Assembly (NCBI GenBank): GCA_028280665.1
Contig: JANQLJ010000063.1
Span: 1 to 39,635 of the forward strand
Source: Alphaproteobacteria bacterium
GTDB lineage: Bacteria > Pseudomonadota > Alphaproteobacteria > JAJFIK01
Direction of reading: 5' to 3'
Length of the DNA: 39,635 nucleotides
The position numbers and the translations under genes were made by a program. This document shows positions 18,709-26,795 of the stretch, one piece after another (position 1 is the first letter of the stretch; each line of letters opens with the position of its first letter). Below the pieces are notes generated by a model. The model was not told the DNA's origin, searched no databases, and was given only the letters and a program-made list of their open reading frames with translations.

Positions 18709-21120
18709 CTATCCGCGCAGCGTACCGCCGGTCGCTTTGCTTACTTGTGCGATCACCTTTTGCGCCACTGCTTCGATTTCATCGTCGGTCAAGGTCTTGT
18801 CGAAGGGCTGCAGCGTCACTTCGATGGCGAGGGATTTCTTGCCCGGCTCTATGCCTTTGCCTTCATAGACATCGAAAAGCACGGCCGCGGTGATCAGCTT
18901 CTTGTCGGCGCCCCTGGCGGCGCGGAGCACTTGTTCGGCGGTCACGTTCACGTCCACCACGAAGGCGAAATCGCGGATGACGGCGGGGAGGTCGCTGGCA
19001 TTAAGGGGACTCCGCGCTTTTGTACCTTTCTTCTTGGGCTCGGGCACATTTGTGGGGATGACTTCGAAGGCGACCATCGGGCCTTTGACGTCCAGCATGT
19101 CGAGAATGCGCGGGTGCACCTCGCCGAAGGTGGCAAGCGCGTTCTTGGGGCCGAGGCGGAGGACGCCGGAACGTCCCGGGTGATACCACGCGGGCGCATC
19201 GCTCGTTACTTGCACGCTTTCAAGGGGGGCGCCCACGGCGGCAAGCACCGCAAGCGCATCGGCCTTGGCGTCGAAAGCGTCCACGCCTCGCGCGGCCGAT
19301 GCCCAATGGCGCGCGCCGGGCGAGCGGCGAATGCCGGAAATCGCGAGCGACTGGTCTTCCGGCGCGTCGCCCGCATATTGGGGCCCGGCCTCGAACAGGG
19401 CCACTTCGTCAAAGCCGCGGTCCATGTTCCGCCCCGCCGCCAGAATGAGCCCCGGCAAGATCGATGGCCGCATGGTATCGAGTTCGGGCGACATGGGGTT
19501 TTCCACGGTCAGCTGCGCAATGTTGTTGGCGGCGCCGAAGGCGCGGGCGTGTTCTTCCGCGATGAACGACCAGGTTACCGCCTCGTCGAGCCCGCGCGCG
19601 GCAAGGGCGCGTTTGGCAAGCCGCATGCGGTTCTGGTTCTCGGTCAAAATGGGCGTCGCCACCGCCACATGGCGCGGCAGCGGCGCTGGCTGCACATGCT
19701 CAAGCCCGTGGATGCGTACGACCTCTTCCACAAGGTCGGCGGGACCTTCCACGTCCGGCCGCCAGCTTGGCACTTCGACCATCAGCTTCTCATCGCCGAA
19801 CCCGGCAACGCCAAAGCCGAGCGCGGCGAGAATCTCCACAATGCGTTGTTCTTCAAGTTTGAGCCCGGTGAGCCGCTCAACGCGGGTGTGATCGAACTCG
19901 ATGGTCTTCTGCCAATGGGGCCCGTCCCCCGCCACCACGGTCTTTGACGCATCGCCCCCGCAAAGATCGAGGATCAGCCGCGTCGCCAGCTCGGCGGCTT
20001 GCGGCAGGTAGGCGGGATCGACGCCGCGCTCAAAGCGGTAGCGGGCATCGGACTGGATGCCGAGCGCGCGGCCCGTGCGCGCGATGCGCAGCGGGTCGAA
20101 ATAGGCGACTTCAAGAAAGACGTTTGTGGTTTCCTCCGTACACCCCGTATTAAGCCCGCCAATGACGCCGCCAATGCCAACAGGCCCGCTGTCATCGGCA
20201 ATCACGCATATGGTCTCGTCAAGTTCATATTCGGCCTCGTCGAGGGCTAGCATCTTTTCGCCCTTCTCGGCGAGGCGCACATGAATATCGCCTTTGAGCT
20301 TGTCCGCATCGAACACATGGAGCGGCCGCCCGCGGTCGTAAGAGACGTAGTTGGTGATGTCCACCAGCGCGGAAATGGGGCGCAGCCCGATGGCCCGCAA
20401 ACGCTTTTGCAGCCAGCCGGGGGAAGGGCCGTTCGTAACACCCTTTACGTAGCGCCCGATGAATTGCGAACAGGCGGCGGCGTTTTCCTTGTCGAACTTG
20501 AGCGAGACACCAATGGGCGACTTGCCGTGCCCCGCCACCGGGTCCACCGCGCCGTCCTTCAATTTCCCAAGCCCCGCCGCGGCAAGATCGCGGGCAATGC
20601 CGTAAACGCCCAGCGCATCGGGCCGGTTGGGCGTGATGGCAATCTCGATCACCGGATCGTCAAGGCCCATCACTTCCGCGAAGGGAACGCCAAGGGGCGT
20701 GTCCTCAGGTAACTCAATAATGCCGTCGTGCTCGTCCGACAGCTCCATCTCGCGCTCGGAAACCAGCATCCCGTTCGATTCCACACCTCTAATCTTGGTG
20801 GGCTTGAGCGTCATTCCCGTGCCAGGGATATAACTTCCCGATGGGGCGAAAACGCCAATCATCCCGGTCCGCGCATTGGGCGCGCCGCAGACCACTTGCA
20901 CTTCGCCTTCGGGCGTCTCCACGCGGCAAAGTCTCAGCTTGTCCGCATCGGGATGGGGTTTTGCCTCGATCACGCGCGCGGTTTTGAAGGCGGCATATTT
21001 CTCCGCCGGGTTGTCGATCTCCTCGACCTCAAGCCCGATCATGGTGAGCTTGCTTGCGATCTCTTCAAGGTTCACGTCGGTTTCCAGATGATCTTTGAGC
21101 CAGTTCAGGGTGAATTTCAT
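18709..21120 (-). CDS. pheT: phenylalanine--tRNA ligase beta subunit
   Basis: [15 protein letters not shown]..., EMAP-like domain, B5 and FDX-ACB domains; start overlaps upstream gene stop (ATGA). Confidence 0.97.
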   Translation of the reverse strand: MKFTLNWLKDHLETDVNLEEIASKLTMIGLEVEEIDNPAEKYAAFKTARVIEAKPHPDADKLRLCRVETPEGEVQVVCGAPNARTGMIGVFAPSGSYIPGTGMTLKPTKIRGVESNGMLVSEREMELSDEHDGIIELPEDTPLGVPFAEVMGLDDPVIEIAITPNRPDALGVYGIARDLAAAGLGKLKDGAVDPVAGHGKSPIGVSLKFDKENAAACSQFIGRYVKGVTNGPSPGWLQKRLRAIGLRPISALVDITNYVSYDRGRPLHVFDADKLKGDIHVRLAEKGEKMLALDEAEYELDETICVIADDSGPVGIGGVIGGLNTGCTEETTNVFLEVAYFDPLRIARTGRALGIQSDARYRFERGVDPAYLPQAAELATRLILDLCGGDASKTVVAGDGPHWQKTIEFDHTRVERLTGLKLEEQRIVEILAALGFGVAGFGDEKLMVEVPSWRPDVEGPADLVEEVVRIHGLEHVQPAPLPRHVAVATPILTENQNRMRLAKRALAARGLDEAVTWSFIAEEHARAFGAANNIAQLTVENPMSPELDTMRPSILPGLILAAGRNMDRGFDEVALFEAGPQYAGDAPEDQSLAISGIRRSPGARHWASAARGVDAFDAKADALAVLAAVGAPLESVQVTSDAPAWYHPGRSGVLRLGPKNALATFGEVHPRILDMLDVKGPMVAFEVIPTNVPEPKKKGTKARSPLNASDLPAVIRDFAFVVDVNVTAEQVLRAARGADKKLITAAVLFDVYEGKGIEPGKKSLAIEVTLQPFDKTLTDDEIEAVAQKVIAQVSKATGGTLRG

Positions 21121-22121
21121 TGGTTCGCCCCCCAATTGAGGTTGGCGAGCCTAACGCCAAGATCGACAATCATCCTTGCTAGGTCTTCGCCGTTTACGAG
21201 ACGAATTGGAGCCGGTGAATTCTCAGCATAATCCTCGGCCTCCTGGCTAAACTCTCCAGCGGTCACAACCCATGCAGCATGCACATGGTCGTGGCGCTCT
21301 ATGCCGCGTTCTACGTCCTGTACTGCGGTCACATCGGTGGGAATGTTCGGATCCCGGTGGTACTTCACCTGCGCTATTACCTTAAGGTCTACTATTGGAA
21401 ATGTGGCGACTACATCGTCACCTGTTTCAACTTGGCGTGCGGGGATCAAAGTGTTTGCGCCCATTGCGGTAAAAACGCTCGCCACCAACCTTTCGAACTC
21501 GCGTTCGTCAATCAAAGTTTCTCCCGCCCGTAGAACGTCCACGGCGCTTGCCACCAGCCGTTCCCGAAGTTGATCTTCAAGTCGTTCACTAGTACCAGAT
21601 GCAGCACGGTCCAATGCGATTTCAATATCGGATACAAGGTCGGTCGCGTCAGCTGCCGATCCTCTGGTCTTCATGCGCGAACGCAGTGCCGATCCCGCGA
21701 CACTTCGCGGAATTGGTTCTGCATGGTTCAGCCATTCAACATTGCGTGAATAAGCGGTATCCGCAATCTCACCTTGGGCATCAGAGGTGTTCTCTTCTTT
21801 GAACTCTGCACAACCGGTTATCTCGCCGACATAAAATGAATCTCCATAGGGTACTACCGCGTAGTCACCGCGTTTGGTGCTGTGAATAAACTGCCATAGA
21901 AAGCCCGCAGCAATACCGGAACGTCGATTACCGGTATCATCCGCGTAATGAGCACTTTTCACGATCTGCCGGAATTGCTCCCAGCTGAGGTCAGGATTGA
22001 GCAAGCCTCGCGCATCAGACCAACCCAAAAAAATGCGCTTTTCTTTTAGTCCTAATTGAAGCCGATCATCACCGCCGGGTGCAAGACGAATAACCAGCGC
22101 CCCTCTTTTCTCCAGGGTCAT
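21117..22121 (-). CDS. Mrr-type restriction endonuclease-like protein with a distinct N-terminal domain
   Basis: C-terminal [47 protein letters not shown]...[19 protein letters not shown] matches the Mrr_cat layout (D...QxK); N-terminal [30 protein letters not shown] looks PUA/EVE-like. Confidence 0.8.
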
Positions 22122-23194
22122 CGACTTAGTCCCGTCGCGAGGTTCGGCATATCAAGGGCGGCGAAGCCGTAATGCTTGAGCCAGCGCAGGTCGGCGGCGA
22201 AGAAATCACGCAAGTCGGGAATGCCGTATTTGAGCATGGCGAGCCGGTCGATCCCCATGCCGAAAGCCCAGCCTTGATAGTCGTCCGGGTCGAGCCCGCC
22301 GAACTTAAGCACATTGGGGTGCACCATGCCGCAGCCGAGAATCTCCATCCAATCCTCGCCCTCGCCGATCTTCACGTTACCACCCGAGCGGTCGCACAAG
22401 ATGTCCACTTCCATGGAGGGTTCGGTGAACGGGAAGTATGAAGGGCGAAAGCGCATGGGCGCCTCGGGCACCTCAAAGAACGCCTTGCAGAACTCGGCCA
22501 GCACCCATTTGAGTTCGCCCAGGGTGGTGGTCTTGTCCACCGCCAAACCTTCGAGCTGGTGGAACATGGGCGTGTGGGTCTGGTCGGAATCGCAGCGATA
22601 AGTGCGGCCCGGGATGATCACCCGCAAGGGCGGCTTTTGCTTTTCCATGGTGCGGATTTGCACAGGAGATGTGTGGGTGCGCAGGACCTTGCGTTCGCCC
22701 TTCTCGTCCGGGACCATATAGAACGTGTCGTGCATCTCGCGCGCGGGGTGGCCTTCGGGAAAATTGAGCGCGGTGAAATTGTAGTAATCGCTTTCGATGT
22801 CCGGACCCTCGGCCACGGCAAAGCCCATGTCGGCGAAGATGGCAACGATCTCGTCGGTCACATGCGTAATGGGGTGGATCGTGCCTTGGGGCATGGGGCG
22901 CGGGGGCAGCGTTACGTCGATTTTTTCTTCCGCAAGCCGCGCATTGAGCGCTGCCTCGTGCAGTTCCGCTTTTTTCGCCGCGATGGCTTCGGTCAGCTCC
23001 GCGCGCAAGCCATTATAGAGCGGGCCTTTTTCTTGGCGCTCCTCCGGGCTCATCTTGCCAAGGGTTTTCATAAGCTCGGAAAGCGCGCTCTTCTTACCCA
23101 GGAATTCCACGCGTGCGGCCTCAAGCTCCGCCTCGTTTGCGGCAGCGGCGATGGCGGTGAGTGCGGACTTTTGTATGTCCTTGATCCCAGGCAT
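22118..23194 (-). CDS. pheS: phenylalanine--tRNA ligase alpha subunit
   Basis: [56 protein letters not shown]; start ATG 23194. Confidence 0.98.
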
Positions 23195-23237
23195 TTTTGC
23201 CCCCTCGGGTAAGTTCTCTCGGTTGCAACGCAATTTG

Positions 23238-24116: not shown

Positions 24117-26198
24117 TCAGAACCTTGCCCGCACAAAGAGCCGGAAGTTTCGTCCCGGCAAGAGCACTTCGTCCTTTTTGAAGGAGGAGTGATTGCGCAT
24201 CTCTTCGTCAAGAAGATTGGACGCGACGACCCCCACCTCGAACGGTGTGTCGGTATTGGGCATCTGGAAGCGATAGATCAAACGCGCTCTCAAGTCAGTG
24301 TAGCCATCTGTCGGCGTTTCAAAGGCGCCAACATCATCCTGCTCGGTCACATGGAGGAGGCTTGTGCCCACCGTCACGCGCTCGTGCTCATAGGTGACGC
24401 CGCCGCCAACACGGAAGGGCGGAATACGCGGCACGTTGCCGCCGCTGTCGAGCTCGGCCCGAACGTAGTCGGCCATGCCATCAAGCGTAATGACGCCGCC
24501 ATTATCGAGCGTTGCCACATCGAACTCAGCCGAGGCCTCGAAGCCGATAAAATCTGCGTCTTCCTGGGAATAGACAATCTGCGTGAGCTCATCCTCAACG
24601 CCGCAGCTATCAAAGTCCTCGCCACATTCTATGCCGGTAAAATCTTTGTAGATGAAGTCTGCAAAGCTCGTGTAATACGCAGCAAGGCTAAAGCGGACCG
24701 GCCCATCGATACGTTCCAGTGTCGCCTCAAACGAACGCGCCGTTTCAATGTCGAGATCAGGATCGCCAATCTCGAAGGTTTCAGTCGCCTCGTGTGGACC
24801 CTTTGCGAAAAGCTCCAGCACATCCGGTGCGCGCTGGGTGATCTGGACCGTACCGGAGAGGTACATGTCAGACCCCAGGTCAAAGATCAGGCCCGCAGAC
24901 CCGCTGACAGGCGTGAAGTCGCGGGAAGCCGGGAACTCTATCCCCATTCCGATAGGCCGGAAGCCCGTGCCGTCGATCTCAACATGCTCGATGCGGCCCG
25001 CCATTTGGAAAGTGGCGCCATTGCCCACGTCGGCTTCCTCAAAAAGGAAGGCGCCAAGGGCACGTGTTTCGGACGGCGCCAATAGTTCTCCGGCCTCGCC
25101 GGCGGCGGTGAGGTCGCGGGTGCGGCCCTGGATACCTACAGCTCCTGTAAAAGGCCCTATCGCACCATGCAGTGCTTCAAGTCGGCCTTCTAATTCTTCA
25201 TTGTCGAATGTCGCACCAATTTCCCCATCCTCAACTTCAATCTCATCATGGATGTAGTCGGTGAAACCACCAGCAAAGGACACTTCATTGAAGAAGCCGT
25301 TCAATCCGCCAAAGCGGCCGCCGACCTGGTAACGCACTTGCTGCATGTCGATGAAGACGTCGTGCCCTTCTTCTTCATGCTCTTCGTCTCCATCATGATC
25401 TTCGTCATGATCTTCTTCTCCGTGACCATGTCCGCCAGGCAGGCCGTATTCGCTTGCGAAGAAGGAAACGCTTGCCCCAATGTGACCGTTGGGAAAAAGC
25501 GCCGAGCCACCGATGGCACCGCCTGATTGTTCGACATACGTCGATTCCTGCGTGCCCTCGTCTCCAGGGATGTCATAGTCATCCGATTCCCGGATAAAGG
25601 CATCCAGGTGACCGGCAAAACTGTTGCCGCCAAAGTCAGCAACCCCGCTGAACTGGTAGCCATCATCGACGGTGGTGTACATGCCGAACGCTTCGACATC
25701 ATAACCGCCTTCTGGCGCTGCATCCGGAATGCGGTTGTTGATGACATTAACAACGCCGCCGATGGCTTCCGAGCCATAGCGCAAGGTGGCGGGCCCGCGC
25801 ACCACCTCGATGCGCTGGGCGGCGAGCGGGTCAATGGAAACGCCGTGGTCTTCGCTGAGCGCAGAAGCATCATGACTGCCAACGCCATTTTCCTGAACCC
25901 GGACGCGGAAATTATCGAGCCCGCGGATAATGGGGCGGCTTGCCCCCGCCGCGAAGGACGATTGGTGAATGCCGGGCTGTCGGGCCAGCAATTCCCCCAG
26001 CGTTACCGCACCAGCTTCCGTGATCTCATCGCGGTCGACCGTCGCGACGGTTGCCGTTGTTTCAGCGGCGGTCTGCTCAAGGGGCGAACCGGTAATGATG
26101 AAGTATTCAACTTCGTCATCGCCGTTTTCTTGGGAAAAGGCGGAGCTGCAGGTAAACAACCCCGCCGCAATCGCCATCACTACTGTTTTTGAACGCAT
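24117..26198 (-). CDS. TonB-dependent receptor, ZnuD-like (probable zinc uptake)
   Basis: Plug domain RPIIRGLDNFRVRVQENGVGSHDASALSEDHGVSIDPLAAQRIEVVRGPATLRYGSEAIGGVVNVI; His/acid-rich loop GHGHGEEDHDEDHDGDEEHEEEGHD; C-terminal F. Confidence 0.9.
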   Translation of the reverse strand: MRSKTVVMAIAAGLFTCSSAFSQENGDDEVEYFIITGSPLEQTAAETTATVATVDRDEITEAGAVTLGELLARQPGIHQSSFAAGASRPIIRGLDNFRVRVQENGVGSHDASALSEDHGVSIDPLAAQRIEVVRGPATLRYGSEAIGGVVNVINNRIPDAAPEGGYDVEAFGMYTTVDDGYQFSGVADFGGNSFAGHLDAFIRESDDYDIPGDEGTQESTYVEQSGGAIGGSALFPNGHIGASVSFFASEYGLPGGHGHGEEDHDEDHDGDEEHEEEGHDVFIDMQQVRYQVGGRFGGLNGFFNEVSFAGGFTDYIHDEIEVEDGEIGATFDNEELEGRLEALHGAIGPFTGAVGIQGRTRDLTAAGEAGELLAPSETRALGAFLFEEADVGNGATFQMAGRIEHVEIDGTGFRPIGMGIEFPASRDFTPVSGSAGLIFDLGSDMYLSGTVQITQRAPDVLELFAKGPHEATETFEIGDPDLDIETARSFEATLERIDGPVRFSLAAYYTSFADFIYKDFTGIECGEDFDSCGVEDELTQIVYSQEDADFIGFEASAEFDVATLDNGGVITLDGMADYVRAELDSGGNVPRIPPFRVGGGVTYEHERVTVGTSLLHVTEQDDVGAFETPTDGYTDLRARLIYRFQMPNTDTPFEVGVVASNLLDEEMRNHSSFKKDEVLLPGRNFRLFVRARF

Positions 26199-26278
26199 TT
26201 GTACTGTTCCTCGTTTCAAGGCGCACGGTCAGCGCGCCAGTGCAATCGGTTGTGAGCCGCGCTAAAGGCGCGGGCGGT

Positions 26279-26689
26279 TCAAGCCGTTGCAACGAGGCGA
26301 GGGGGCCGGTCGATGTTCGAGAAATGGTTGGAAGGAGGTGCCTCTCTACGCTCAGGCGCATAGGCAACCGATGTTACGTGAAACGCCATGTCAACGGCAG
26401 CGGGCACCGCTGACACATAGACGGAAGAGCCGCTCGATGCATGGCTGTTATCATGCTCGTGATCGAGCACGCATGTATGTTCGGCGTCATGGTGACCGTC
26501 ATGATCAGTGTGGCTGTCATAGCCTGCCAGACCGAAGCCGGTGAAGTCGTGATTGTGCTCATGATCCGCATGGGATGCGTGATAGATGTCGCCCAGCGCG
26601 TGCAAGGAAAGGCCAGGGCCGATGGCAAAGGCAAGCAGCACGGCCAAGACCATGCTGAAAACCGTTCTTTGCCGGCAATGCTGAAACAT
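26279..26689 (-). CDS. His-rich small secreted/membrane protein
   Basis: MFQHCRQRTVFSMVLAVLLAFAIGPGLSLHALGDIYHASHADHEHNHD...HTDHDGHHDAEHTCVLDHEHDNSHA...NIDRPPRLVATA; directly upstream of the ZnuD-like gene. Confidence 0.75.
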   Translation of the reverse strand: MFQHCRQRTVFSMVLAVLLAFAIGPGLSLHALGDIYHASHADHEHNHDFTGFGLAGYDSHTDHDGHHDAEHTCVLDHEHDNSHASSGSSVYVSAVPAAVDMAFHVTSVAYAPERREAPPSNHFSNIDRPPRLVATA

Positions 26690-26795
26690 CTCTGCCCCGT
26701 CTTTACCCTGTCTACCCCCACGAAAGACGGGCCGACAATACTGCCAACCCGCTTGTTTCGTCAATCGGGTGCAGTTTCACAATCCAAGGATGTTC

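Follow-up and report, generated by a model that had tools for sequence, protein, structure and literature searches.

The window (the whole stretch of DNA analysed, 39,635 nucleotides of an alphaproteobacterial contig) carries pheS and pheT, the genes of the two PheRS subunits, on its minus strand, and an Mrr-type nuclease ORF is situated between them. The features of the locus are as follows.

22118..23194 (-), pheS; conserved ATG start at 23194, ORF opening at 23233; PF01409, PF02912
22118..22121 (-), ATGA overlap of the pheS stop (TGA) with the nuclease start (ATG)
21117..22121 (-), Mrr-type nuclease ORF, 334 aa, ATG start; PDC-S02-like candidate modification-dependent restriction enzyme, from Pfam and PADLOC matches and GC3
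21597..22121 (-), N-terminal domain, aa 1-175; its fold resembles the YTH/EVE modified-base readers of the PUA superfamily
21165..21512 (-), C-terminal Mrr catalytic domain, aa 204-319, with D236...Q251-x-K253; PF04471
21117..21120 (-), ATGA overlap of the nuclease stop (TGA) with the pheT start (ATG); SD-like GGGGGG upstream, in the 3' end of the insert
18709..21120 (-), pheT; Pfam B3_4, B5, FDX-ACB and tRNA_bind

Both flanking genes are true PheRS subunit genes according to Pfam, and the ATGA overlaps described in the initial annotation are exact on both sides, placing the three ORFs contiguously in a pheS-pheT operon; no terminator-like site was found on the coding (minus) strand in the stretch from pheS to pheT. 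An intact, homologous ORF of 334 codons that overlaps its neighbours at both ends is beyond chance. The ATGA overlap alone is unremarkable, since it is the normal pheS-pheT junction in Alphaproteobacteria (62 of 118 genomes), and an argument for the placement from unusual overlaps was dropped for this reason.

The HMM search proposed in the initial annotation gives a significant match to Mrr_cat at residues 204-318 [PF04471, 58.1 bits (cut-off 21), E = 1.1e-15], and the catalytic residues thought there to be intact are so: in a 10-sequence alignment of the ORF and nine relatives the D...QxK (PD-QxK) site is kept at D236, Q251 and K253, in invariant or nearly invariant columns. The PADLOC candidate family PDC-S02 (PDLC04819) covers residues 22-320 of 334 (E = 3.6e-20). 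When the PDB is searched with a sequence profile of the nuclease family, MspJI and AspBHI are recovered, and the same two enzymes (E = 2.8e-7 and 1.7e-5 respectively) are matched by the fold of the full-length AlphaFold2 model (pLDDT 85), all of which bears out the identification as an Mrr-type nuclease. Searches with the nuclease of NCBIfam, and of the PDB with the single sequence, gave no match; gasdermins came up in the profile search of the PDB, but their matches span a helical linker and were set aside.

The N-terminal 175 residues were also modelled alone (AlphaFold2, pLDDT 90, pTM 0.86). YTH domains are the top PDB matches to this model, followed by archaeal PUA-type proteins (E about 1e-3), and the EVE-HNH enzyme VcaM4I is among the fold matches of the full-length model. 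The domain thus resembles a YTH/EVE-like modified-base reader, with TM-scores that are modest (about 0.45-0.59); its fold matches are of the YTH/PUA type and do not place it in the EcoKMrr subfamily, whose N-domain is a winged helix. Fusions of YTH-like domains to PD-(D/E)XK nucleases are already on record (PMC7641849).

No methyltransferase adjoins the nuclease, whose neighbours are pheS and pheT. A search of the 91%-complete genome with two Pfam methyltransferase families found no C5-cytosine methyltransferase and a single N6/N4 methyltransferase, which matches CcrM (E = 1.7e-157). These results favour the type IV-like assignment of the initial annotation over type II, and a putative stand-alone modification-dependent (type IV-like) restriction enzyme is the best reading of the protein and its likeliest function. 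Were the reader to see N6-methyladenine, CcrM sites would have to escape.

The GC content of the nuclease ORF is 52.7% and its GC3 is 0.487, the lowest among the large ORFs when composition is compared within the window; pheS and pheT both have a GC3 of 0.76. The whole-ORF values point in the same direction as the two lines of sequence counted by hand for the initial annotation, which had proposed a foreign origin. The closest relatives found are 33-42% identical and belong to Nitrosomonadaceae, Pseudomonas, Nitrospirota, Bipolaricaulota and a Thermus plasmid; others occur in Pyrinomonadaceae, as a split ORF, and on a Leptospira plasmid, so that two of the lineages are plasmid-borne. None of the relatives found adjoins pheS or pheT. 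Searching the genomes of 41 relatives gave four weak matches besides the window's own nuclease, 299 genomes of the phylum gave eleven matches (strongest E = 4.6e-19), and Mrr_cat has no match in the two congeneric genomes G001 and G002. Viral contigs, searched with two peptide patterns only, yielded no confirmed relative. The nuclease gene was acquired horizontally, given that its GC3 differs from that of its neighbours (0.49 versus 0.76) and that its closest relatives are dispersed among unrelated phyla and plasmids. The Pyrinomonadaceae relative (L033 1615-2579) consists of two overlapping ORFs, probably through a frameshift, and the match to the Leptospira plasmid is also in two pieces.

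The neighbourhood search across Alphaproteobacteria suggested in the initial annotation was carried out in 118 genomes with pheS and pheT matches listed on one contig and strand; it rests on the best matches listed, so the sample leans to genomes close to that of the window. Apart from the ATGA-type overlaps, the two genes are separated by more than 150 bp in eight genomes and lie far apart in G278. When two samples are combined, more than 300 bp of unrelated cargo lies between pheS and pheT in 15 of 138 evaluable genomes, a rate measured at pheS-pheT alone, from which no enrichment over other tight essential gene pairs is claimed; most genomes carry none. The three congeneric genomes have three different cargos: the nuclease in the window, a 239-aa protein with no Pfam match in G002, and in G001 an ASCH-domain ORF interrupted by contig ends, of which both halves are present (L007 1-201, L008 1-231). 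The ASCH domain belongs to the PUA superfamily, as does the reader domain of the window nuclease.

Elsewhere in the class, a HEPN-like ORF with a 109-aa partner (G071, L049) or a similar pair (G282, L009) lies between pheS and pheT; this pair, found in two genera of one family, is possibly a toxin-antitoxin system. Further cargo comprises DUF559 (G315), DUF4160-DUF2442 (G380) and non-defence genes (GFA, LysE, cupin, GATase, pentapeptide-like and esterase-like ORFs, the last label being read from sequence). A single cargo gene with double NTGA overlaps around it is seen at three loci, those of the window, G334 (GFA) and G315, and the anatomy of the double-overlapped insert is thus a recurring pattern; in several genomes with an insert, the cargo and pheT do not overlap. 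Judged as a cDHS would be, the cargo varies between relatives, yet genes other than defence genes make up most of it. Passenger genes, antiviral defence genes among them, seem to have settled at the junction repeatedly; a purely defence island was rejected, much of the cargo being metabolic or unclassified.

Outside the class, about 80 genomes of the phylum are evaluable, and cargo of more than 300 bp occurs in two, from one genus (G320, G374). In G320 (L050) an AAA ATPase between pheS and pheT has PtuA1 as its best PADLOC match (5.8e-32; AriA 1e-24) and is followed by a DUF4435/AriB-like ORF (1.7e-5); ATGA overlaps join the AAA ORF to pheS and the two ORFs to each other. By these matches the AAA and DUF4435 genes are a PARIS-like defence pair, intact in this genome, after which comes a nucleotidyltransferase matching PDC-S09. 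In G374 (L051) the second ORF of the PARIS-like pair is broken while pheS and pheT persist.

The window nuclease is, in our judgement, probably a horizontally acquired, stand-alone type IV-like restriction enzyme that was seamlessly inserted at a permissive junction within an operon. The N-terminal YTH/EVE-like domain would probably flip out and read a modified base in incoming DNA, and the C-terminal Mrr PD-QxK domain would cut the modified DNA; a cognate methyltransferase would not be needed, and the adenine methylation by the host CcrM is presumably outside the specificity of the nuclease. On insertion, the ATG of the insert would have taken the ancestral pheT start position (pheS ...ATGA) and its stop would have re-created an ATGA with pheT. 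Such a seamless insertion suggests that the nuclease is expressed from the pheS operon. The junction would be a permissive in-operon site that has accepted different cargo repeatedly, with defence genes as one cargo class. A broader proposal, which we put forward tentatively, is that pheS|pheT serves as an in-operon landing site: with an ATGA-type overlap as the ancestral state, any whole ORF that has NTGA at its start and its end could slot in and leave translation unbroken, and defence genes at this position might be steadily expressed and, having essential genes on either side, be less easily lost.

The initial annotation went further and saw the nuclease as translationally locked between the PheRS subunits, which would stabilise it and tie its dosage to PheRS. 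Under such a lock pheT could not initiate unless the insert was translated, and the essential gene would thereby keep a costly nuclease from being readily lost (operon hitch-hiking). The overlaps on both sides of the nuclease favour such a lock, as do the double overlaps around the unrelated GFA and DUF559 cargo. The start of the insert, which sits at the would-be ancestral pheT start, has a weak SD-like match (-4.0 kcal/mol); pheT, however, has a strong one of its own inside the 3' end of the insert (-9.3 kcal/mol; background 5th percentile -7.1), and may initiate partly on its own. The PARIS-like insert in G374 has lost its second gene with both flanks still in place, and several other inserts do not overlap pheT. 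The SD-like match and the decayed insert weaken the case for a strict lock, which we regard as unlikely.

A role in translation or in connection with PheRS, for the protein as a housekeeping factor or as a nuclease not used in restriction, would account for the position between the two subunit genes, but is very improbable: the gene is absent from G001 and G002, which hold other cargo there, and its relatives elsewhere are unlinked to pheST, two lineages being on plasmids. A universally conserved partner of PheRS, an option left in the initial annotation, is excluded, as congeners have unrelated genes at this position and most alphaproteobacteria have none. Equally improbable is an assembly or binning artefact, by which the nuclease was wrongly joined into the operon; the genome is a MAG-like draft in 182 contigs and the composition of the nuclease differs, but exact in-frame ATGA junctions at both ends and the inserts of the congeners at the same junction make a chimeric join unlikely.

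The preferred reading, a stand-alone restriction enzyme acquired from elsewhere, describes an enzyme of a known kind. MspJI and AspBHI, the best PDB matches, likewise combine a modified-base reader with a C-terminal Mrr-like nuclease; they are about 15% identical to the window nuclease and their reader is SRA-like. E. coli Mrr (EcoKMrr) shares the Mrr-cat domain, the PD-QxK site and the lack of a partner methyltransferase, but reads DNA through a winged helix (PMC12707154), whereas the reader of the window nuclease is YTH/EVE-like by fold. PUA-superfamily readers serve modification-dependent restriction in EVE-HNH enzymes (VcaM4I) and YTH-McrB (PMC7897488, PMC7641849), which differ in their nuclease or motor domain. 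The profile match to PDC-S02 is full-length; PADLOC PDC systems are termed putative (PMC10855318), PDC-S02 being itself a candidate defence family, and we found no report of its placement inside an essential operon. The combination of a YTH/EVE-like reader with an Mrr domain is worth assaying.

By location the nearest known case is the core defence hotspot cDHS1 of P. aeruginosa, which was found because nine immune systems have pheS, pheT and rplT as neighbours (PMC10250203). There, too, defence genes adjoin rplT-pheS-pheT, but as an island that has merR and a DUF4011 gene as its borders and lies outside pheST, whereas the window has a single overlapping ORF inside; in the open-access literature no report was found of a gene between pheS and pheT. 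What is new is the seat in an essential two-subunit operon and the recurrent unrelated cargo at its junction, and it is the location, more than the enzyme, that is of importance. Descriptions of defence genes usually place them on mobile elements or in islands between operons; if the reading is right, single defence genes in an essential operon represent another way of housing, expressing and keeping them. The pheS-pheT gap is a simple comparative marker by which cargo can be found, the HEPN pairs and other conflict genes not yet classified among it, and the junction is worth a systematic survey.

Other features were seen around these genes. A further insertion in this cluster of translation genes, consisting of a TonB-receptor-like gene and a small ORF between infC and rpmI, is shared by the three genomes of the genus (window 24117-26764; L037/L006; L007/L038). 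Between pheT and lepA, G001 has three extra ORFs (L039 356-2110) that neither the window nor G002 contains. In G343 (genus g288, family f180) pheS and pheT occupy separate contigs, neither of them near a contig end (L056, L057), and the operon seems to be split.
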